Positions 16,248-26,471 of a stretch of DNA of 64,000 bases are shown piece by piece. Made by a program: the position numbers and the translations under genes. The stretch is from Radicibacter daui. GTDB taxonomy: Bacteria; Pseudomonadota; Alphaproteobacteria; Radicibacterales; Radicibacteraceae. Below the pieces are notes generated by a model. The model did no database searches. It was not told the DNA's origin and was given only the letters and a program-made list of their open reading frames with translations. Positions within the stretch are counted from its first letter, which is position 1, and the number at the start of each line of letters is the position of its first letter. The DNA lies in assembly GCA_030657355.1 (NCBI GenBank), contig CP131057.1, positions 393,501 through 457,500 on the forward strand. Reading direction: 5' to 3'.

Positions 16248-17234
16248 ATGTTTCAGAATAAAGGGTTTGCTGTCGCCGCTTTCGTGGCTGCCAGCATGGT
16301 GGCCGGTGCTGCTGCGGCCGCCGACAACATCGTGCTGCGCTCGTCTGACACCCATCCCGACGGTTACCCGACTGTCGAGGCGGTGAAATATATGGGCGAG
16401 CTGCTCAAGGAACGCACCAAGGGTCATCTCTCCATCGATGTCTATCACTCCGCCCAGCTGGGTGAGGAGAAGGACACCATCGAGCAAACCCAGGCCGGTG
16501 TGCTTGACCTCAACCGCGTATCCATGGGCCCGTTCAACGGCATCGTGCCGGAGACGGCCATTCCGTCGCTGCCTTACATCTTCCGCTCGACCGAGCACAT
16601 GCATCATGTGATGGATGGCCCGATCGGCGAGAGCATCCTCAAGGCTTTCGAGCCGCATGGCCTCGTCGGCCTGGCTTTCTATGACAGCGGTTCGCGTTCT
16701 TTCTACAACCGCATCAAGCCGATCAAGTCAATCGAGGACCTCAAGGGCATGAAGTTCCGCGTTATCCAGTCCGACGTGTTCGTCGACATGGTGAACGCTC
16801 TCGGCGCCAACGCCACGCCGATGCCCTACGGCGAAGTCTACTCCGCCCTGCAGACCGGCGTTATCGACGGCGCCGAGAACAACTGGCCGAGCTTCGAGAG
16901 CTCCAAGCATTATGAAGTGGCCAAGTACTACACCCTCGACCAGCACCAGAGCGTGCCGGAAGTGCTGGTGATGTCGAAGATCGTCTGGGACAAGCTTTCG
17001 GATGACGATCATGCCGCCATCCGCCAGGCCGCCAAGGACAGTGTCGGCAAGATGCGCGAGCTGTGGGAAGCGGCGGAAGCCAAGTCCAAGAAGATCGTCG
17101 AGGATGCCGGCGTCCAGGTGGTCTCCGACATCGACAAGAAGCCGTTCATCGATGCCATGAAGCCGGTCTATGAGAAGTACGCAACCACACCGGCTCTCAA
17201 GAAACTGATCGCCGACATCCAGGCGACCCAGTAA
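16248..17234 (+). CDS. TRAP transporter substrate-binding protein (DctP family)
   Basis: 328 aa with a signal peptide (residues 1-24, [19 protein letters not shown]). The DctP signature is clear: [38 protein letters not shown] with the carboxylate-binding Arg, and [26 protein letters not shown] proteins of this type bind organic or sugar acids in the periplasm. The neighbouring uxaC and kdu genes indicate hexuronates or unsaturated uronates. GGGAGG lies upstream of the ATG. Confidence 0.94.
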
Positions 17235-17307
17235 CAACCCGCAAAAACTGCTGTTGTGCGGCGCGGGGGACGGACCCCCGTGCCGCCTTCCCTGGGGAGG
17301 GAAAGAA

Positions 17308-17895
17308 GTGAGTGAGTTTATCGTGTGGGCGGACCGGTGGCTCCGGCGCCTGAGCACACTTGCCCTGTGGATCAGCGGGGCCGGGCTTGTGCTGATGACT
17401 GTCATCATTGCCTGGCAGGTGTTCTCCCGCTTCGTTCTGAATGACTCCCCGAGCTGGACCGAAGCCTCCTCCGTCCTGCTGATGGGCTGGTTTATCTTCC
17501 TCGGCGCGGCGGTTGGTGTGCGCGAGCGCACCCATCTCGGCTTCGACGTGCTGCTCTATTTCATGCCGCCGGGCGCCAAGCAGATTTTCCGCACCATTTC
17601 CGACCTTGTCGTGTTCGCCTTCGGCATCGGCATGATTATCTACGGCACGAAGCTGTCGTTGCTGACCTGGAACACCGTCATGCCGGCGCTAAAATGGCCC
17701 GGCGGCCTTGCATTCTTCCCCGTGATCGGGGGAGGCGTTCTTGTCGTGCTCTTCACGCTTGAACGCATGGTTGGGCGCCTTGCCGGCCTGCCGGTCGATG
17801 AAAGCCCCGAGCAGACCACCGAGCACCTCATCGAGGCGGAAGGTACCGGCCACGACACGGCCACTTCCGCGCGCAGCACCGCTGTCGGAGCCTGA
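17308..17895 (+). CDS. TRAP transporter small permease (DctQ family)
   Basis: 195 aa from GTG 17308, chosen because GGGAGGGAAAG precedes it; no ATG is near. Four predicted membrane helices, including STLALWISGAGLVLMTVIIAWQVFSRF (with the DctQ W-Q-V-F-S-R-F pattern) and ASSVLLMGWFIFLGAAVGV followed by RERTHLGFDVL. Partner of the downstream DctM; together they form the membrane part of the uronate TRAP transporter. Confidence 0.92.
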   Translation: MSEFIVWADRWLRRLSTLALWISGAGLVLMTVIIAWQVFSRFVLNDSPSWTEASSVLLMGWFIFLGAAVGVRERTHLGFDVLLYFMPPGAKQIFRTISDLVVFAFGIGMIIYGTKLSLLTWNTVMPALKWPGGLAFFPVIGGGVLVVLFTLERMVGRLAGLPVDESPEQTTEHLIEAEGTGHDTATSARSTAVGA

Positions 17896-17903
17896 GTGAA
17901 AAA

Positions 17904-19184
17904 ATGACCCTTATCATTCTCTTCGGCGTGTTCGTGGCACTGCTGCTGATCGGCACTCCCATCGCCTTCTGTCTCGGCGTCGCCAGCTTCGCGACCGTGC
18001 TTTATATGGGGCTGCCGCCCATCGTGGTGTTCCAGCGCCTCAACTCCGGCGTCAGCGTCTTTTCGCTGATGGCTATTCCCTTCTTCATCTTCGCCGGTGA
18101 CCTGATGGTGCGCGGCGGCATCGCCGCACGCCTAGTCGCGCTGGCAGGCGCGCTGGTCGGCCACTTCAAGGGTGGCCTCGGACAGGTGAATATCGCGGCT
18201 TCCACCATGTTTGGTGGCATCTCCGGCTCGGCCGTGGCCGATGCCTCGGCTGTCGGCGGCCTGATGATCCCGCAGATGAAGGCGCGTGGCTATGACGTCG
18301 ACTATGCGGTCAACGTCACTTCCATCGGCGCCATCATCGCGCTGATGATCCCGCCCTCGCACAACATGATCATCTATTCGATCTCGGCGGGCGGGCGCAT
18401 TTCGATTGCCGACCTCTTCACCGCAGGCGTCATTCCGGGCTTCCTGCTGGCGATCAGCCTGATGGTCACGGCCTACATTGTGGCCTCGCGCCGCGGTTAC
18501 CCGACAGAGCCGTTCCCCGGCGGGCGCATGCTGCTGACGCTGCTGTTCAGTGCCATTCCTGGCCTCATCCTCATCGGCATCATCTTTGGCGGCGTGCGTT
18601 CCGGTGTCTTCACCGCGACCGAAAGCTCCTGCATCGCCATCGTCTACGCGTTTCTCGTCACGCTCGTCGTCTATCGCTCGATGAGTTTCAAGGATTTCGT
18701 CGAGGCGACGCAGGGTGCGGTGCGCACCACCGCCATGGTGCTGATGGTCATCGGCTGCTCGGCCACCTTCGGCTGGCTGCTCGCCTATCTGCGCGTGCCG
18801 GCTGCCCTGGTCACCTTCCTGCAATCGGTCTCCGACAATCCTTACGTCATCCTGCTGCTGATCAATGTGATGCTGCTGGTGCTCGGCACTTTCATGGATA
18901 TGTCGCCGCTCATCATCATCACCACGCCGATCTTCCTGCCGGTGGTACAGGCCTACGGCATCGACCCGGTGCATTTCGGCGTCATCCTCATCCTAAATCT
19001 CGGTATCGGTCTCTGCACGCCGCCTGTGGGTGCCGTGCTGTTCGTCGGCTGTGCGCTTGCCAGGATATCCATCTGGCAAGCCATGCGAACGATCTGGCCG
19101 ATGTATGGCGCAGCCATCGTGGCGCTTGGTATCGTGACCTACGTGCCGGCGGTCTCGCTCTGGCTGCCAAGCCTCTTCCACTAA
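17904..19184 (+). CDS. TRAP transporter large permease (DctM family)
   Basis: 426 aa, the usual DctM length with about 12 membrane segments. Family hallmarks: IPFFIFAGDLMVRGGIA, ASTMFGGISGSAVADASAVGG and IPPSHNMIIYS in the first half, FMDMSPLIIITTPIFLPV and NLGIGLCTPPVGAVLFVG in the second. It is the ion-coupled translocator of the tripartite transporter. Its stop codon lies within the ribosome binding site region of the GntR gene. Confidence 0.95.
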   Translation: MTLIILFGVFVALLLIGTPIAFCLGVASFATVLYMGLPPIVVFQRLNSGVSVFSLMAIPFFIFAGDLMVRGGIAARLVALAGALVGHFKGGLGQVNIAASTMFGGISGSAVADASAVGGLMIPQMKARGYDVDYAVNVTSIGAIIALMIPPSHNMIIYSISAGGRISIADLFTAGVIPGFLLAISLMVTAYIVASRRGYPTEPFPGGRMLLTLLFSAIPGLILIGIIFGGVRSGVFTATESSCIAIVYAFLVTLVVYRSMSFKDFVEATQGAVRTTAMVLMVIGCSATFGWLLAYLRVPAALVTFLQSVSDNPYVILLLINVMLLVLGTFMDMSPLIIITTPIFLPVVQAYGIDPVHFGVILILNLGIGLCTPPVGAVLFVGCALARISIWQAMRTIWPMYGAAIVALGIVTYVPAVSLWLPSLFH

Positions 19185-19199
19185 GGAGCCCGGCCCCTC

Positions 19200-19976
19200 G
19201 TGTCGCTCGTTGATCCCACCATGATGCGCAGCGCGCGCAAGCCCAAGCTGTCGGACCGCGTGATCAGCGCGCTCCGGCAGCAGCTTGCGGCGGGAGAGCT
19301 CAGGCGCGGCCAGAAGCTGCCGACGGAAAACCAGCTGTCGGCGACCTTCGGCGTCAGCCGTACCGTGGTGCGCGAGGCGATTGCCGCCCTCGCCGCCGAC
19401 GGGATGGTCGAGGCCCGGCAGGGGGCCGGCGTGTTCGTTACCGCCAACCTCACCACCTCCATCGGCGGTATCGCCGCCGACATGGGAAACAGCGACAGCA
19501 TTGCCCTCAACGTGTTGGAAGTACGGCTTGCCATGGAGGTGGAGAGTGCCGGCCTTGCCGCCCTTCGCCGTAGCGCCTCGCAGGAAGCGGCGATCCAGGA
19601 AGCCTTCTTCGAGTTCGAAAAGCTGCTGCGCAAGGCCGAGCCGACCGGTCCGGCGGATCTCGCCTTTCACCGCGCCATCGCCACCGCGACGGGCAATCCC
19701 TTTTATGTCGAGGTGCTCGACGTGCTCGGCGCCCGCGCCATCCCCTGCGACGTGACCTCGCCCTGGGCAACTGAAACGGCACTGTCGATCGATTATCAGA
19801 TCGGCTTGCAGCGCGAACATCTGGCCATTCTGGACGCCATTTCCGCAGCCGATGCCGATGCCGCCCGCGATGCCATGCGTGTGCACCTGACCCGCAGCCA
19901 GGAGCGCTATCGCGAAAACCTGCAGAAACGGCAGGCCTATTACGCCCGGGAGCTAGAAGCCTCCAAACGCGGCTGA
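19200..19976 (+). CDS. GntR-family regulator, FadR/FCD subfamily
   Basis: 258 aa, GTG start with AAGGAG 9 nt upstream. An N-terminal winged HTH (KLPTENQLSATFGVSRTVVREAI, split around residues 40-62) is followed by an FCD effector domain (VLEVRLAMEVESAGLAAL, ADLAFHRAIATATGNPF, EHLAILDAISAADADAARDAM) whose His and Asp residues usually bind a metal and a carboxylic acid. Uronate regulators of the ExuR/UxuR/KdgR type belong here. Being inside the uronate operon, it is likely its repressor. Confidence 0.93.
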   Translation: MSLVDPTMMRSARKPKLSDRVISALRQQLAAGELRRGQKLPTENQLSATFGVSRTVVREAIAALAADGMVEARQGAGVFVTANLTTSIGGIAADMGNSDSIALNVLEVRLAMEVESAGLAALRRSASQEAAIQEAFFEFEKLLRKAEPTGPADLAFHRAIATATGNPFYVEVLDVLGARAIPCDVTSPWATETALSIDYQIGLQREHLAILDAISAADADAARDAMRVHLTRSQERYRENLQKRQAYYARELEASKRG

Positions 19977-20034
19977 TTGCCGCCGGCCCTTCCCCGATTT
20001 GTCCCTTAAGCCCGAGAAGATGAACGAGGTTCAG

Positions 20035-20892
20035 ATGACCGAGACCACCACCCATACCGATTACGAATGCCGGTGGGCCATCGACCCCGCAAGCGCCGCC
20101 CGCATGGGCACCGACGAGCTGCGCAGCAATTTCCATGTCGGCGGCCTGTTCGAGGTCGGGCGCATTCGTCTGACCTATGCGCATTATGACCGCATGATCA
20201 TCGGCGGCGCGACGCCGGGCTCGCTGGCGCTCGATCTGGAAGCGATCAAGCCGACCGGTACGGCCAATTTCCTCGACCGGCGCGAACTGATCGCCGTCAA
20301 TGTCGGCGGCGCCGGCTCCATCACCACCGATGGCACGAAGCACAGCGTCGATCATCGCGACATGCTCTATGTCGGGCTCGGTACGAAGAAGGTTTCTTTC
20401 GCCTCCGCCGATGCCACCAGCCCGGCAAAGTTCTATCTGGTGAGCGCCCCGGCGCATGCGACTTTCCCGACCAAGCTCATTCGCATCGGCGATGCCAAGA
20501 GGCTTGATCTCGGCTCGCAGGAAACTTCCAACGAGCGCTCGATCTTCCAGTTCATCCATCCGGAAGGGGCGCAGACCTGCCAGCTGGTTGTCGGCATGAC
20601 GACGCTGGCGCCGGGCTCGGTGTGGAACACCATGCCGTGCCACATCCATGACCGCCGCTCCGAGGCCTATCTCTATTTCAACCTCGCCGAGAGCGCGCGG
20701 GTCTTCCACTTCATGGGCGAACCCAACGAGACGCGCCATCTGGTGATCCGCAACGAGGAAGCCATCCTCTCTCCGGGCTGGTCCATCCATTCCGGCGCCG
20801 GCACCGCCAACTACACTTTCATCTGGGCGATGGCCGGCGACAATGTCGACTACACCGATGTCGACAAGGTCGAGATGGGGGATCTGCGCTGA
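20035..20892 (+). CDS. kduI: 5-dehydro-4-deoxy-D-glucuronate isomerase
   Basis: 285 aa from ATG 20035, with GAGG 5-6 nt upstream; an earlier in-frame ATG at 20020 is possible. It follows KduI throughout: NFLDRRELIAVNVGGAGSI, and the zinc site H203, H205 and E210 in PCHIHDRRSEAYLYF plus H252 in WSIHSG. It isomerises 4-deoxy-L-threo-5-hexosulose uronate to 3-deoxy-D-glycero-2,5-hexodiulosonate, the second cytoplasmic step of unsaturated-uronate use. The stop overlaps the kduD start (TGATG). Confidence 0.96.
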   Translation: MTETTTHTDYECRWAIDPASAARMGTDELRSNFHVGGLFEVGRIRLTYAHYDRMIIGGATPGSLALDLEAIKPTGTANFLDRRELIAVNVGGAGSITTDGTKHSVDHRDMLYVGLGTKKVSFASADATSPAKFYLVSAPAHATFPTKLIRIGDAKRLDLGSQETSNERSIFQFIHPEGAQTCQLVVGMTTLAPGSVWNTMPCHIHDRRSEAYLYFNLAESARVFHFMGEPNETRHLVIRNEEAILSPGWSIHSGAGTANYTFIWAMAGDNVDYTDVDKVEMGDLR

Positions 20893-21653
20893 TGGCCTCT
20901 TCCCCCTTCAGCCTTGCCGGTCGCCGGATCGTGGTGACCGGCGCCAATACCGGCATCGGGCAGGGCATTGCCATTTCCATCGCCCGGGCGGGCGGCCACG
21001 TCATTGCCGTCGGCCGTTCCTCCATGGAGGGGACGAAGGAAGCCGTCGAGGCTCATGGCAACGGTTTTACCGCGATGAGTTGCGATCTCTCCCAAGCCAA
21101 GGCTGCACAGGCCATGCTGGAGGAGGCGTTTGCCGCCGGTCCGGTTGACGGGCTCGTCAACAATGCCGGCATCATCCGTCGCAACGATGCCGTGGATTTC
21201 AGCGAGGAAGACTGGGACGAGGTGATGGATATCAACCTCAAATCCATGTTCTTCCTGTGCCAGACCTTCGGCCGCAAGGTGCTGGCGCTACCGGGCCATC
21301 ATGGCAAGATCGTCAACATCGCCTCGATGCTGAGTTTCCAGGGCGGCATTCGCGTTGCTTCCTATACGGCCTCCAAACATGGCGTGCTGGGTATCACCCG
21401 CCTGCTTGCCAACGAGTGGGCCGCCAAGGGCATCAACGTCAACGCCATTGCCCCGGGTTATATCGAGACCAACAATACCGAGGCGCTGCGCGCCGACCCC
21501 GACCGCAGCGCGTCCATTCTGGCGCGCATCCCGGCCGGGCGCTGGGGCCGCCCGCAGGATATCGGCGACAGTGCCGTTTACCTGCTGGCACCGGCCTCGG
21601 ACTATATGCATGGCGCCGTGATCCCGGTGGATGGCGGTTGGCTGGCGCGCTGA
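20892..21653 (+). CDS. kduD: 2-dehydro-3-deoxy-D-gluconate 5-dehydrogenase
   Basis: 253 aa short-chain dehydrogenase. Cofactor motif TGANTGIGQG (residues 17-26), NNAG near residue 91, catalytic S-Y-K with YTASKHG, and GRWGRPQDIGDSAVYLLAPASDYMHGAVIPVDGGWLAR at the C-terminus, which follows KduD closely. It reduces the KduI product to 2-keto-3-deoxygluconate. It is translationally coupled to kduI. A KDG kinase and aldolase are not in the window. Confidence 0.94.
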   Translation: MASSPFSLAGRRIVVTGANTGIGQGIAISIARAGGHVIAVGRSSMEGTKEAVEAHGNGFTAMSCDLSQAKAAQAMLEEAFAAGPVDGLVNNAGIIRRNDAVDFSEEDWDEVMDINLKSMFFLCQTFGRKVLALPGHHGKIVNIASMLSFQGGIRVASYTASKHGVLGITRLLANEWAAKGINVNAIAPGYIETNNTEALRADPDRSASILARIPAGRWGRPQDIGDSAVYLLAPASDYMHGAVIPVDGGWLAR

Positions 21654-21685
21654 GGCGCGGCGACACGACAAAGGAGGGCAAATCC

Positions 21686-22030
21686 ATGACCACTGCGGCA
21701 GAAACCACCTTGTTCGCCCCGCCGACCGATGATGGCTGGATCGAGGTCGCGCCCGGCAACCGCCGGCGCGTGCTGGTTTATACCGAGGGGTTGATGCAGG
21801 TGGAGTTCGCCTTTGAAAAGGGCGCCATCGGTTATCTGCACTCCCACCCGCATGTGCAGTCGAGCTATGTGGCCGAAGGCAGCTTCGAGGTCACCATTGA
21901 CGGCAAGAAAGAGGTCATCAAGGCCGGAGGCAGCTTCATCGTGCCGTCGGGCCTCGAGCATGGCGTCGTGGCGCTCGAGCCCGGCCGCCTGATCGACTGC
22001 TTCACGCCGATCCGGCAGGATTTTCTGTGA
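21686..22030 (+). CDS. kdgF: KdgF-type cupin, unsaturated uronate linearising protein
   Basis: 114 aa, with AAGGAGGG 7 nt upstream. A single cupin domain with metal ligands in GYLHSHPHVQSSYV and GLEHGVV. KdgF proteins speed the ring opening of 4,5-unsaturated monouronates to the ketone that KduI uses, so the order kduI-kduD-kdgF makes a complete short pathway. Its last 68 bp are duplicated 3.2 kb downstream. A strong terminator follows, ending the operon. Confidence 0.93.
   Translation: MTTAAETTLFAPPTDDGWIEVAPGNRRRVLVYTEGLMQVEFAFEKGAIGYLHSHPHVQSSYVAEGSFEVTIDGKKEVIKAGGSFIVPSGLEHGVVALEPGRLIDCFTPIRQDFL
21959..22026 (+). repeat. Left copy of a 68-bp direct repeat (3' end of kdgF)
   Basis: Matches 25171-25238 at 67 of 68 positions: 61 exact bases, one A/G difference, then six more matches. 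It covers the last ~22 codons of kdgF. The two copies bracket the 3.2-kb islet. Confidence 0.95.
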
Positions 22031-22042
22031 GTACGTAAGGTC

Positions 22043-22085
22043 AAAACAGCCGCCTGCTCATGGTGATGAGCAGGCGGCTGTTTTT
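22043..22085 (+). terminator. Rho-independent terminator of the uronate operon
   Basis: AACAGCCGCCTGCTCA / TGAGCAGGCGGCTGTT form a long perfect stem around TGGTGA, flanked by AAAA and TTTTT. The strong stem 13 nt after the kdgF stop ends the operon and sits at the left edge of the islet. Confidence 0.95.
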
Positions 22086-22129
22086 GTATTTGAATGAGAC
22101 TGGCTGCTGCTTCCCGGAACGCAGATTTC

Positions 22130-22405
22130 TCAAGGGGTATCGAAATGACTGCCGCATTTGTTGCATGCCCTTCTGGGGGGCGCCAAAAGCGGAGCGGTTG
22201 GATATTTCGGATCGTAATACATGTTCGTCCCGCATATCGCACACGTAATAACTCTGTTATGCAAAAGATAGACTGCGCCGATTAGGATTGATACCGTTAT
22301 GTCTTTAAAAATAAGAAGCGATACCATCATTATGGGGATAAATAATAATATCACAGGTCTCGTTACTCTGGCGTATTGATATTTATTGATGTTGAAAAAT
22401 TTCAT
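22130..22405 (-). CDS. Small membrane protein with a C-terminal zinc ribbon
   Basis: 91 aa. Two hydrophobic helices (PVILLFIPIMMVSLLIF and ITVSILIGAVYLL) are followed by CAICGTNMYYD and CNKCGSHF, two CxxC knuckles that should bind one zinc. Its ATG follows the Imm53 stop directly (TAAATG), so the two form an operon. The surrounding DNA is much more AT-rich than the rest of the window, a sign of acquisition. Function unknown; it may be an accessory to the immunity protein. Confidence 0.7.
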   Translation of the reverse strand: MKFFNINKYQYARVTRPVILLFIPIMMVSLLIFKDITVSILIGAVYLLHNRVITCAICGTNMYYDPKYPTAPLLAPPRRACNKCGSHFDTP

Positions 22406-22726
22406 TTATTTATATTCCGATAAATTATCAGATACTAAATCTGAATTCGCCCAATCCACAAAGGCCGAGACGGCAGCCGTCAGATTCTTTGGTCCGCAAA
22501 AAATTAAAACCTTCCCACCAGTTGCCGTACCATGAATCCAATCCGAATTCGCCGTTTCTTCAAGAACGGCAAAGGTATCCGCACGGTTTTCAAGGCCGGT
22601 TCCTTCAAGGTCGATTTCTATGCACCAGCCTGGATTGTCGAGTGTCTTTATCTCTATGCCAAATTGATGCTCCCATTGGCCGTCGCAACGAGATGCATAC
22701 CACGCCTGCAAGTCCTCAAAGGCCAT
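22406..22726 (-). CDS. Imm53-family immunity protein (orphan)
   Basis: 106 aa from ATG 22726. The sequence LQAWYASRCDGQWEHQFG then IEIKTLDNPGWCIEIDLEGT is the hallmark of immunity protein 53 (WYxxqCDGxWEHxxGixIxTLDNPGW). Imm53 proteins protect against polymorphic toxins delivered by contact-dependent or type VI-like systems. No toxin gene is adjacent, so this is an orphan immunity gene in an AT-rich islet. It is the first gene of a two-gene minus-strand operon. Confidence 0.85.
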   Translation of the reverse strand: MAFEDLQAWYASRCDGQWEHQFGIEIKTLDNPGWCIEIDLEGTGLENRADTFAVLEETANSDWIHGTATGGKVLIFCGPKNLTAAVSAFVDWANSDLVSDNLSEYK

Positions 22727-22984
22727 AGTGCTCAAACCTGCAATCATCTTCCGACCCAGATTGGGAGATCAAAAAAATCCAGTTTCTCCGCATTATAGCA
22801 CGCGAAAAACAACAACATCTTCAACCGTGAAATCATGCTGGATTAACAGCGATCACTTCCTGCATGGCACAAAGCGCCCCGCATGGATCAAATAGAAAGG
22901 TTGGGCCGACCTTGATCGCGTTCGAGGTCTCGGCATCGACATGCGCCAGTCAGATTGGGTTTCCCCTGTTTTGTGGAGAAACCC

Positions 22985-23998
22985 ATGCGCATTCTTGTCG
23001 CTCTCATCACCTATTTCGGCCTTATGGCGGCCTGCTCGGCGGGAACGCTTCCGCCTGTCGGCTTCCGCACGCTTGATGCCCATGGGCTGAGCGCCGTCAT
23101 CTGGTATCCAGCCGCAGCCGCGGGACCGGTCACGCTTGTCGGCGACAATCCGGCCTTCGTTGGCGTGCCCGTGGTCAAGGACGCCCCGGTTCAAGGAACG
23201 GCGCTTCCGCTGGCCCTGCTGTCTCATGGCTTCAGCGGCCTGTGGCGCAATCAGGCCTGGCTCGCCGAACGCCTCGCCGAAGCAGGGTATATCGCTGTCG
23301 CTTTCAATCACCCCGGCACCTCCTGGGGAGACATGGACCCGGCGTGGGCGACAGATCCGGGCAGGCGTCCGCACGATGTCTCCCGGGTTCTGGATACCCT
23401 GCTGGCGGACGGGGAAATGGCCGCGCTGATCGATCAGACGCGGATTTCCGTTATCGGCCATTCCTTGGGAGGCGCAACGGCGCTGGAACTGGTTGGCGGA
23501 GAGCTGGACCCGGCGCTGCTGGAGAATGCCTGCGGCACGGACAGGAGCAGGATTGTCTGCAATGTTTACCGCAGCGGCGGCATGACGGCGGCAACACCGA
23601 AGGTATCAGCCCGGGATCCCCGTATTTCGGCTGCGATATTGCTGGATATGGAAGGCATCCGTGGTTTTACCCTGGAAAGCCTGAGTGCGCTTTCCGTCCC
23701 GGTCCTCGCGCTCGTTTCTGGGGTGGAGGATCCGGGTTTGCCGCTGGGGTGGGAGGGCAGGGCGCAGGCAAACCTGCTACCCCCGGCGACCACCCGTTAT
23801 GCCGAGATCGTGGGCGCCACCCATTTTTCCTTCATGAGCGAGTGCAAACCCGGCGCAATCGGCCTGCTGGGGGAGGATGCCTATGTTTGTGAAGGGGAAA
23901 CGGCGCTGCGCGCCGCTCTGCATGAGGAGATCGCGCAGACCGTCATTCGTTTCCTGAATGCCGGTACTCGGTTGGCGATAACCCTGCAGCAGCCCTGA
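22985..23998 (+). CDS. Alpha/beta hydrolase, exported or lipoprotein (dienelactone-hydrolase/PAF-acetylhydrolase-like)
   Basis: 337 aa from ATG 22985. A short N-terminal signal ends in LMAAC, which could be a lipobox, so it may be a lipoprotein. LPLALLSHGFSGLWRNQAWLAE is the oxyanion region, GHSLGGA the nucleophile elbow and GATHFSF the catalytic His. SVPVLALVSGVEDPG fits the acid-bearing strand. These proteins are esterases or lipases of unknown natural substrate. Its 3' end overlaps the converging AraC gene by 56 bp. It lies inside the repeat-flanked islet. Confidence 0.85.
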   Translation: MRILVALITYFGLMAACSAGTLPPVGFRTLDAHGLSAVIWYPAAAAGPVTLVGDNPAFVGVPVVKDAPVQGTALPLALLSHGFSGLWRNQAWLAERLAEAGYIAVAFNHPGTSWGDMDPAWATDPGRRPHDVSRVLDTLLADGEMAALIDQTRISVIGHSLGGATALELVGGELDPALLENACGTDRSRIVCNVYRSGGMTAATPKVSARDPRISAAILLDMEGIRGFTLESLSALSVPVLALVSGVEDPGLPLGWEGRAQANLLPPATTRYAEIVGATHFSFMSECKPGAIGLLGEDAYVCEGETALRAALHEEIAQTVIRFLNAGTRLAITLQQP

Positions 23999-24941
23999 AG
24001 GCCCGGTTGAAGTTGGATTTGGTCTGGAAACCGGCCTCCAGCATGACCTGCGTTACCGGCAGGTCGGTTTCCCGAAGCAGCCGTTTGGCTTCCCGGACAC
24101 GATAACCGTTGACCAGATCGGTTACCGAACAGCCCTGCAGCCGGTTTACGGCGGCAGAGATCTTACGGGCCGGCACGAGAGAGCGGCGTGCAAGGCGCTG
24201 GAGTGTCAGGTCGTAATCCTTGTAGAGGCCCTGCTCCAGCAGGGGGATCACAACGGCAAGGACCGCCTGTTCCTCTCCGGTTTCGGCCGGCGCTCCGGCG
24301 GGCCCGTCCGGAACCGGAGGTTCTGCCTCCTGCGGCACGGCGCGGCTGGCGCGGGACAGAACTGTGCCGGCGGCGCCGACCAGCATAACACTCATCAAGG
24401 CCGCAATGGCCGAAGCGGCGAGAGCATTATCGCCACGCGTCAGTGCAAAGGAGACCAGTGCGTCGACCGCAGCACTGAGGATAAGCAGGGCCGCAATGCC
24501 TCTTTGGGCCTGAAACACCGTCCATTCATCGCCGATGCGGACGCGCGTCAGTGTGCCGTCAGGAAATTGCAGACGGAGAATACAGAGGCCGTAGAGCAGG
24601 AACTCGGCAATTAACAGCGCGTCGACAATGGCCGGAAGCAGCCAGTAACAGACGATCACCAAAAACGGCCACAGCCCGTGAAGAACAGACGGTCTTTGCT
24701 GGCGCAGGCTCTGGAATGCGGCCCAGGCCAGAGCCGGCAGGCAGGCCGCAAAAACCGGCTGAACGATATGAACCCAGGCAGGGTTCGCGCTCCACCGTAA
24801 CCCGACCAGTACGCTTTGGGTCGCGCAAGCCCCGACAAAGAGCACGAACCAGCGCTGCCGCCCGCCGTCCTGCACCATGCGGAAAAGGACAAAAGCCAGA
24901 AAGACCGTGACGAGGAAAGGCAGAGAGATCGACGGCATCAC
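23943..24941 (-). CDS. Membrane-anchored AraC-family regulator
   Basis: 332 aa. Residues 1-200 hold about six or seven membrane helices (SLPFLVTVFLAFVLF, GLWPFLVIVCYWLLPAIVDALLIAEF, and others). The C-terminal ~100 residues are an AraC double HTH (LTLQRLARRSLVPARKISAAVN, VTQVMLEAGFQTKSNFNRAF, LSPTEYR). This 7TM-plus-AraC architecture would sense a membrane or periplasmic signal directly. It converges with and overlaps the esterase gene, which may be its target. Confidence 0.88.
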   Translation of the reverse strand: MMPSISLPFLVTVFLAFVLFRMVQDGGRQRWFVLFVGACATQSVLVGLRWSANPAWVHIVQPVFAACLPALAWAAFQSLRQQRPSVLHGLWPFLVIVCYWLLPAIVDALLIAEFLLYGLCILRLQFPDGTLTRVRIGDEWTVFQAQRGIAALLILSAAVDALVSFALTRGDNALAASAIAALMSVMLVGAAGTVLSRASRAVPQEAEPPVPDGPAGAPAETGEEQAVLAVVIPLLEQGLYKDYDLTLQRLARRSLVPARKISAAVNRLQGCSVTDLVNGYRVREAKRLLRETDLPVTQVMLEAGFQTKSNFNRAFRAAAGLSPTEYRHSGNE

Positions 24942-25170
24942 GTGTCATGAAGGTTGGAAGCGTCTGCTTTCTTTTAGACGCTTCGGACCGTCCTTTACAT
25001 CACTGAGGGAGTCGTAGGTGTCCGCCTCGGTGTTGTATGGGGCGGGCATTCAGGCAAATTCACCATAATAGACCGCGCCGGCTCTGCTGGAGCCTAGCAG
25101 GTGGGTGAGTAACGGCTGAGTGCGAGAGTGGATAGACTTGGGCGGCCAAGAGCTCAGGCAGTGACAGGAA

Positions 25171-25238
25171 CATGGCGTCGTGGCGCTCGAGCCCGGCCGC
25201 CTGATCGACTGCTTCACGCCGATCCGGCAGGGTTTTCT
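25171..25238 (+). pseudogene. kdgF 3'-end remnant, right copy of the 68-bp direct repeat
   Basis: In the kdgF frame it encodes HGVVALEPGRLIDCFTPIRQ then G-F-L and a stop (CTT TAA), where the intact gene ends D-F-L and stops (CTG TGA). The duplicate therefore keeps the protein end but has different last codons, as expected if an insertion replaced the original gene end with its own copy. No start or upstream kdgF sequence is present. Confidence 0.9.
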
Positions 25239-25266
25239 TTAAAACGGCTGTGACGCGCTTTTCGAG

Positions 25267-25308
25267 CAAGGCCGGCTATAGACTGTTCCAGCAGTCTGCC
25301 CGGCCTTG
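25267..25308. repeat. Two-tier hairpin downstream of the beta-lactamase gene
   Basis: Outer arms CAAGGCCGG / CCGGCCTTG (25267-25275, 25300-25308) and inner arms AGACTG / CAGTCT (25280-25285, 25292-25297). It begins 9 nt past the bla stop and lacks a T-tract, so it may protect or end the bla transcript. Confidence 0.55.
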
Positions 25309-25316
25309 TCCGGAGG

Positions 25317-26339
25317 TTATCTGGTATGAAATGCAACCTCCTGCATCATTTTGGAAAACAGGTCTGTCCGTTCGTCCAGCGGCTTGTCGGACCCGGCCAG
25401 AAAAGCGGCAATGATTACGGCATGGCCATCAGGCCAGCTCACAATTCCGATATCGTTGAACGCGGCGGTAATGCCGTTCATGGAAATCGACGTGCCGCAT
25501 TTATCCGCCAGCGCCGCGCCGGCAGGCAGACCGGCTCTCAGGCGCAATGGTTTAGTCTGGCCATACATCAACGCCAAAAGATGTTGCGTGGACTTCGGTG
25601 ACAGCAGCTCGTTTTTCCAGAGTTTTTGAAGAAATAGCGCTGCAGCATCGGGCGTTGTGGGGTTGCGCGGGTTCTGAAGGAAATCCTGATAGCCGTGCCA
25701 CAGGCGCAGGTTTCGCTGATGAGCGGTTTCGTTTACCGGCGGCCTTTGACCACTCGGCAAGGCTGAAAAAACCTCATTTATCGCCCCCTCTTCCATCTCG
25801 ACGTGCATGTCGCCCAGTTGGTGTTTCTTAAGGAAGCGCGCAACAGTCTCAACGCCTCCGATCTGTCGGACAAGAGCGTCAACTGCGGTGTTGTCACTTT
25901 TGCTGACCGCCGCTGCGAGAAGCTGCTCGACGGTAAAGTTCATGCGCTGACCCTGGAAGGTTCGGGCTATATCGCTTGCGCCGGGGCGCAGCTCGTTTCG
26001 CTGAATGATCACGCTCGCCTGCAAGGACAGCAGCCCTTGATCAACCCTGTCGAGCACTGCAGCGGCAACCGGAGCCTTGAAGACGCTCATCATTGCAAAA
26101 GGCTGATCCTGGTTTACGCCCCAATGATCGCCTGTTCTCAAATCAATAATGGTGACACCCAAGACGCCCGGCCGCGCCCGTGCAGCAAGGGAGGAAAGCT
26201 TGTCTTGCAGAGAAAGGAGAACGTCACTTTTCTCCGGGTTAGCCAAAGCTGCCGGGGAGTACAGGACAGGCATGAAGATGACGGCGAAAATCGCAGCCAG
26301 CCTGACCATCATTCCGCCAAGCAGGTATTGTTGACGCAT
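25317..26339 (-). CDS. Class A beta-lactamase (PER-like, A2-type)
   Basis: 340 aa from ATG 26339, which has AAGGGG 8 nt upstream; longer in-frame starts lack a good site. A signal peptide covers about residues 10-33. Active-site motifs: S85-V-F-K88 (the SxxK nucleophile), S148-D-N150, and E184-G-A-I-N188 as the omega-loop Glu and Asn. The KTG box is K280-C-G282, an unusual Cys in place of Thr/Ser. A long insert (ALPSGQRPPVNETAHQRNLRLW) resembles the extended subclass A2. It should hydrolyse beta-lactams in the periplasm; the spectrum cannot be read. The LysR gene upstream ends 133 nt before it. Confidence 0.9.
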   Translation of the reverse strand: MRQQYLLGGMMVRLAAIFAVIFMPVLYSPAALANPEKSDVLLSLQDKLSSLAARARPGVLGVTIIDLRTGDHWGVNQDQPFAMMSVFKAPVAAAVLDRVDQGLLSLQASVIIQRNELRPGASDIARTFQGQRMNFTVEQLLAAAVSKSDNTAVDALVRQIGGVETVARFLKKHQLGDMHVEMEEGAINEVFSALPSGQRPPVNETAHQRNLRLWHGYQDFLQNPRNPTTPDAAALFLQKLWKNELLSPKSTQHLLALMYGQTKPLRLRAGLPAGAALADKCGTSISMNGITAAFNDIGIVSWPDGHAVIIAAFLAGSDKPLDERTDLFSKMMQEVAFHTR

Positions 26340-26471
26340 TGCCAGTGCCCCTTCGCCCGAACGGCCGTTACGCCATCGTAGCGCTGCCATCCCCATGACT
26401 TGTCATCCCTCAATTTTTTGGTACAAGCCATTGTTTAACTGTAATAAGTTCAATTTCGGGCGGAAGAGCCT

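Follow-up and report, generated by a model that had tools for sequence, protein, structure and literature searches.

The window analysed here, a stretch of 64,000 nucleotides from Radicibacter daui, contains a complete kdgF-type cupin gene on the forward strand (21686-22030; 114 aa, Cupin_2 E 1.2e-13). It is the last gene of a conserved TRAP transporter-GntR-kduI-kduD-kdgF cluster (16248-22030) that was found in many Devosia and rhizobial loci, with conserved synteny in Devosia, Mesorhizobium and Sinorhizobium, among others. For the TRAP large subunit, identity to the Mesorhizobium protein reaches 85%, in a comparison that includes no further genome from the order of this DNA, and this similarity suggests that the kdg cluster was acquired by horizontal transfer. 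Downstream of kdgF lies an islet of about 3.1 kb with four open reading frames (22031-25167), and at its far border the end of kdgF is present a second time.

A repeat search of the window returned the pair 21956-22026 / 25168-25238, with 97% identity across 71 bp and a spacing of 3212. Extended to the stop codons, the repeat measures 75 bp with 71 matching positions and corresponds to 25 in-frame codons including the stop. The left copy (21956-22030, forward strand) is made up of the last 24 codons and the stop of kdgF and ends in ...RQDFL*; the right copy (25168-25242, forward strand) is a headless 3' fragment without the first 90 codons of kdgF, still in frame with a stop and ending in ...RQGFL* (right-hand end sequence of the displaced copy: TTTTCTTTAA). 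The exact core of the repeat is 61 bp long (21959-22019 / 25171-25231). A duplication of the kdgF 3' end around the islet had been proposed in an earlier note on this DNA; with 71 of 75 bases matching, 61 of them consecutive, it is real, and the 68 bp given there are the 61+1+6 portion of the 75-bp repeat.

The borders of the repeat are sharp on both sides: identity per 15-base block falls from 12-15 inside the repeat to 2-7 outside, and the 120-bp flanks of the two copies give local alignments no better than those of shuffled sequences. Upstream of the right copy, tblastx gave a weak similarity, which was dismissed for the same reason. When the kdgF end was compared with the window by blastn, the right copy was found with an E value of 4e-30 and the next-best match with 5e-4. 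Across the 5.06-Mb genome the repeat occurs at just these two places; the earlier note had considered that it might be common elsewhere, and no further copy was found.

The two copies differ at four positions (left/right copy: 21958 G/A, 22020 A/G, 22027 G/T and 22029 G/A). The difference at the left border is silent (GAG/GAA, Glu in both copies), while those at the right border are GAT/GGT (Asp/Gly), CTG/CTT (both Leu) and TGA/TAA (stop). Three of the four mismatches are within the last 11 bases of the repeat and the fourth is at the opposite border. With random placement, four changes over 75 positions would all fall into the 14 border positions in about 0.08% of arrangements, and three changes would all fall into the last 11 of 72 positions in 0.28%; both figures are guides only, as the test is post hoc and the borders were picked after the data had been seen.

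All 59 alphaproteobacterial kdgF loci inspected have an acidic residue, Asp or Glu, directly before the terminal Phe-Leu (or Phe-Val, Phe-Ile); the left copy has Asp at this position and the right copy Gly. Judged by its sequence, the left copy is the functional one and the right copy a fossil, because the left keeps the conserved acidic residue and the right has Gly. That the right copy keeps the protein end with different last codons, as had been noted before, holds true (...RQGFL*, encoded with GGT, CTT and TAA). As kdgF stays intact, the effect of the islet on the host is probably small.

The two leftmost genes of the islet are both on the reverse strand. The first (22130-22405, GC 0.41) encodes an orphan of 91 amino acids that is likely a membrane protein; its N-terminal half is hydrophobic, and plasmids and viral contigs yielded no relative. 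The earlier note had called it a zinc-ribbon protein: a C-terminal match to Zn_ribbon_3 does exist, but it is weak (E 0.006) and below the cut-off. The second gene (22406-22747, GC 0.465) encodes an Imm53 immunity protein (PF15580, E 1.7e-27), scoring 95.5 bits where the cut-off of its Pfam family is 25. No viral relatives of either protein were found in the viral collection. Imm53 has been linked to Ntox24 and Ntox10 toxins (PMC3482391). Pfam and NCBIfam scans of the genes at 19.2-27.4 kb identified no toxin gene, in agreement with the orphan status assigned earlier: by sequence, the gene is a member of the Imm53 family and an orphan. A plasmid of Rhizobium sp. N324 (L133:3019-3763) has a cluster of immunity genes in which Imm53 adjoins Imm8, with an IS630 transposase close by; the Imm53 of the islet, by contrast, has neither a toxin nor another immunity gene alongside.

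The other two genes are an alpha/beta-hydrolase (esterase) on the forward strand (22985-23998; Abhydrolase/PAF-AH matches) and a membrane AraC-type regulator on the reverse strand (23943-24941; HTH_18 E 5e-20), arranged tail-to-tail with a 56-bp overlap; the regulator is assigned a membrane part because the N-terminal half of its sequence is hydrophobic. The Imm53 and AraC-type assignments of the earlier note both stand. Tail-to-tail pairs of an esterase and a membrane AraC protein are also present on plasmids: the two genes overlap by 62 bp in Klebsiella, by 95 bp in Pantoea and by 46 and 0 bp in Rhizobium, and lie 20 bp apart in Vibrio, with identities to the islet proteins of 31-51% for AraC and 38-43% for the esterase. 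These plasmid pairs consist of the same two protein types and are convergent like the pair of the islet; unlike the latter, they are not linked to kdgF. Because the convergent pair recurs on plasmids of these four genera, it is, as far as gene order and protein similarity can tell, a conserved convergent module in its own right. Between the regulator and the right copy of the repeat lies a non-coding stretch of 226 bp (24942-25167) that is unique in the genome and has no recognised integrase remnant. The short open frames within it were catalogued; the profile-library scans covered the annotated genes. RNA families were not detected in the region, and searches with defence and phage libraries returned no defence family but only generic matches to the esterase and the regulator.

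In base composition the islet is not uniform. The two left genes have GC contents of 0.41-0.47 versus 0.56-0.68 in the other genes examined, and their GC3 values (0.45 for Imm53 and 0.47 for the orphan membrane protein) compare with 0.63-0.85 in the others; the block of these two genes also has the most atypical tetranucleotide composition of the window (z 6 to 7). The first ~0.8 kb of the islet, that is the orphan membrane protein and Imm53, is clearly foreign, and the left part is as AT-rich as described before. The GC3 values of the esterase (0.71) and the membrane AraC protein (0.70), however, are within the range of the window's other genes. The suggestion in the earlier note that the gene content supports acquisition therefore applies to the AT-rich left quarter but not to the host-like esterase/AraC pair: composition does not show that all four genes are foreign, as this pair is host-like and occurs as a separate module on plasmids. 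The islet may be composite, or the element may have taken up the esterase/AraC module from a donor of host-like composition.

Twelve bases after the kdgF stop codon starts a perfect stem-loop of 19 base pairs followed by a U tract (22043-22084, forward strand; fold -39 kcal/mol, z -8.6) that is unique in the genome. It was called in a terminator scan that yielded as many hits as scans of shuffled sequences, the one at 22043-22084 having 19 pairs. This stem-loop is a predicted intrinsic terminator, which the element would have supplied if the insertion model developed below is right. A long stem-loop without a U tract (25265-25309; fold -35.9 kcal/mol, z -3.6) follows the right copy and was not called in the terminator scan; it separates the kdgF fragment from a class A beta-lactamase gene in convergent orientation. 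The latter (25317-26396) is immediately past the right copy, has a GC content of 0.56, below that of its neighbours, and has a score that barely exceeds the cut-off for class A in general and stays far under the named-family cut-offs shown.

Profile scans found no integrase, relaxase, transposase or conjugation genes among the four open reading frames of the islet, so that the earlier statement that no integrase remains is correct for these four, and at the inner borders the repeat search gave no terminal inverted repeats. The genome has five Phage_integrase genes, all on contig C1, while the window is on C2. No integrase was found near kdgF in relatives with queries taken from the open reading frames of the five integrase loci of this genome, two of which are possibly other open reading frames; one weak match to these queries was in a locus that had been retrieved through a short DNA match. 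Within the limited query sets, no second copy of the kdgF end beyond short chance matches was found in the kdgF loci of relatives, all of them from outside this order, and in none of these loci were the islet genes found downstream of kdgF. Class-wide and plasmid searches with kdgF returned distant genes only, and the kdgF homologues contained in phage records are likewise not close. A 23-bp piece of the exact core was absent from viral contigs, and no related integrase-bearing element beside kdgF was identified in the relatives examined or in the viral collection.

We consider it rather probable that the islet (22031-25167) is a decayed, CIME-like integrative element that entered the 3' end of kdgF by site-specific recombination. 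In this model the element arrived as a DNA circle whose attP contained a variant of the last ~25 kdgF codons and stop. Through a crossover within the shared 61-bp core, kdgF would have exchanged its own 3' end for that of the element, with a strong terminator behind it, and would have remained intact; the original end would have been displaced to the far border as the headless fragment at 25168-25242, where it could drift (Asp to Gly). The gene for the integrase would since have been lost, or the enzyme would have been supplied in trans. From the arrangement we infer that the left and right repeat copies are attL and attR, and likewise the former attP, the integrase and the direction of the event. 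We favour integration at the 3' end of kdgF because the duplication covers exactly the last 24 codons plus stop, has sharp borders and is unique, and the clustering of the mismatches at the borders argues for recombination between two gene ends that had already diverged rather than for a duplication followed by random decay. The foreign composition of the left end and the absence of the islet genes after kdgF in the loci of relatives also count for an insertion. Several observations count against an integrase-driven one: there is no integrase or recognised remnant of one inside the islet and all five integrase genes of the genome map to contig C1; no relative with the element or with a duplicated kdgF end was found with the limited query sets; most of the islet is host-like in composition; and 61 bp are at the long end of the range for att cores.

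The same scar, with two diverged ends, would also be left by a RecA-dependent, Campbell-type single crossover of circular DNA that carried a short kdgF 3' piece from a relative, and this route needs no dedicated integrase, in line with none being found. It would, however, need efficient recombination over about 61-75 bp and a donor whose homology starts 75 bp before the stop codon and ends at it, and it leaves the border at the stop codon, which is typical of att sites, unexplained; we regard it as unlikely. A local rearrangement, in which the kdgF end was duplicated by a replication error or repair and the AT-rich Imm53 segment and the esterase/AraC pair were gathered piecemeal, fits the mixed composition of the islet and the existence of the pair as a separate conserved module. 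Yet neither the restriction of the mismatches to the borders nor the precise end at the stop codon is expected from such events, and a duplication plus at least one independent insertion is less economical, which makes this origin quite unlikely. The direct repeats that flank the insert could finally be read as a very long target-site duplication of a transposon. Usual target-site duplications are far shorter than 61-75 bp, a fresh one would be identical up to the edge, and the scans and the repeat search found neither a transposase nor a terminal inverted repeat at the inner borders, so that we give this reading hardly any weight.

The proposed insertion into the 3' end of kdgF by site-specific recombination has a close counterpart in the element e14 of Escherichia coli, which resides in icd, supplies 3' codons with an Asp/Glu difference and leaves a duplicated pseudo-icd' of 163 bp (PMC6379469). 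On this model, both target the 3' end of a metabolic gene, provide a new end in which an acidic residue is changed and leave a displaced fragment at the far border (PMC6379469). They differ in that e14 has integrase and prophage genes of its own and a duplicated end of 163 bp, while the duplicated end at the islet is 75 bp long and the islet has neither an integrase nor a phage gene. An insertion at the 3' end with one side restoring the gene, as put forward in the earlier note, is thus backed by the att-like anatomy and by the match to e14/icd, although a single crossover leaves the same scar.

Elements that carry cargo but no recombination genes (CIMEs, cis-mobilizable elements, 1.2-13 kb) are common at the 3' ends of protein genes (PMC7563491). 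The islet looks like a CIME by its anatomy: it has direct repeats at a gene end and no integrase, relaxase or conjugation genes inside, and it resembles the Streptococcus CIMEs at rpmG, rpsI, fda and rplL in its size, in having cargo only and in being flanked by att-type repeats where a protein gene ends (PMC7563491). The Streptococcus CIMEs were recognised via tandem ICE/IME partners that share the att site, whereas the islet has no known partner.

None of the five top-ranked papers in a literature search on kdgF and integration mentions kdgF, and no earlier report of it as an attachment gene was found there. It is conceivable, if doubtful, that the kdgF 3' end is an undescribed attachment site of an alphaproteobacterial integrase family, with the islet as a still-mobilizable satellite that replaces the last codons and the terminator. 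Leftovers without an integrase at a gene end are a recognised kind; kdgF would be a candidate new attachment gene, joining those protein genes whose 3' ends serve for integration. A displaced gene end alone can reveal an integrase-free islet, and islets of this kind can be composite.
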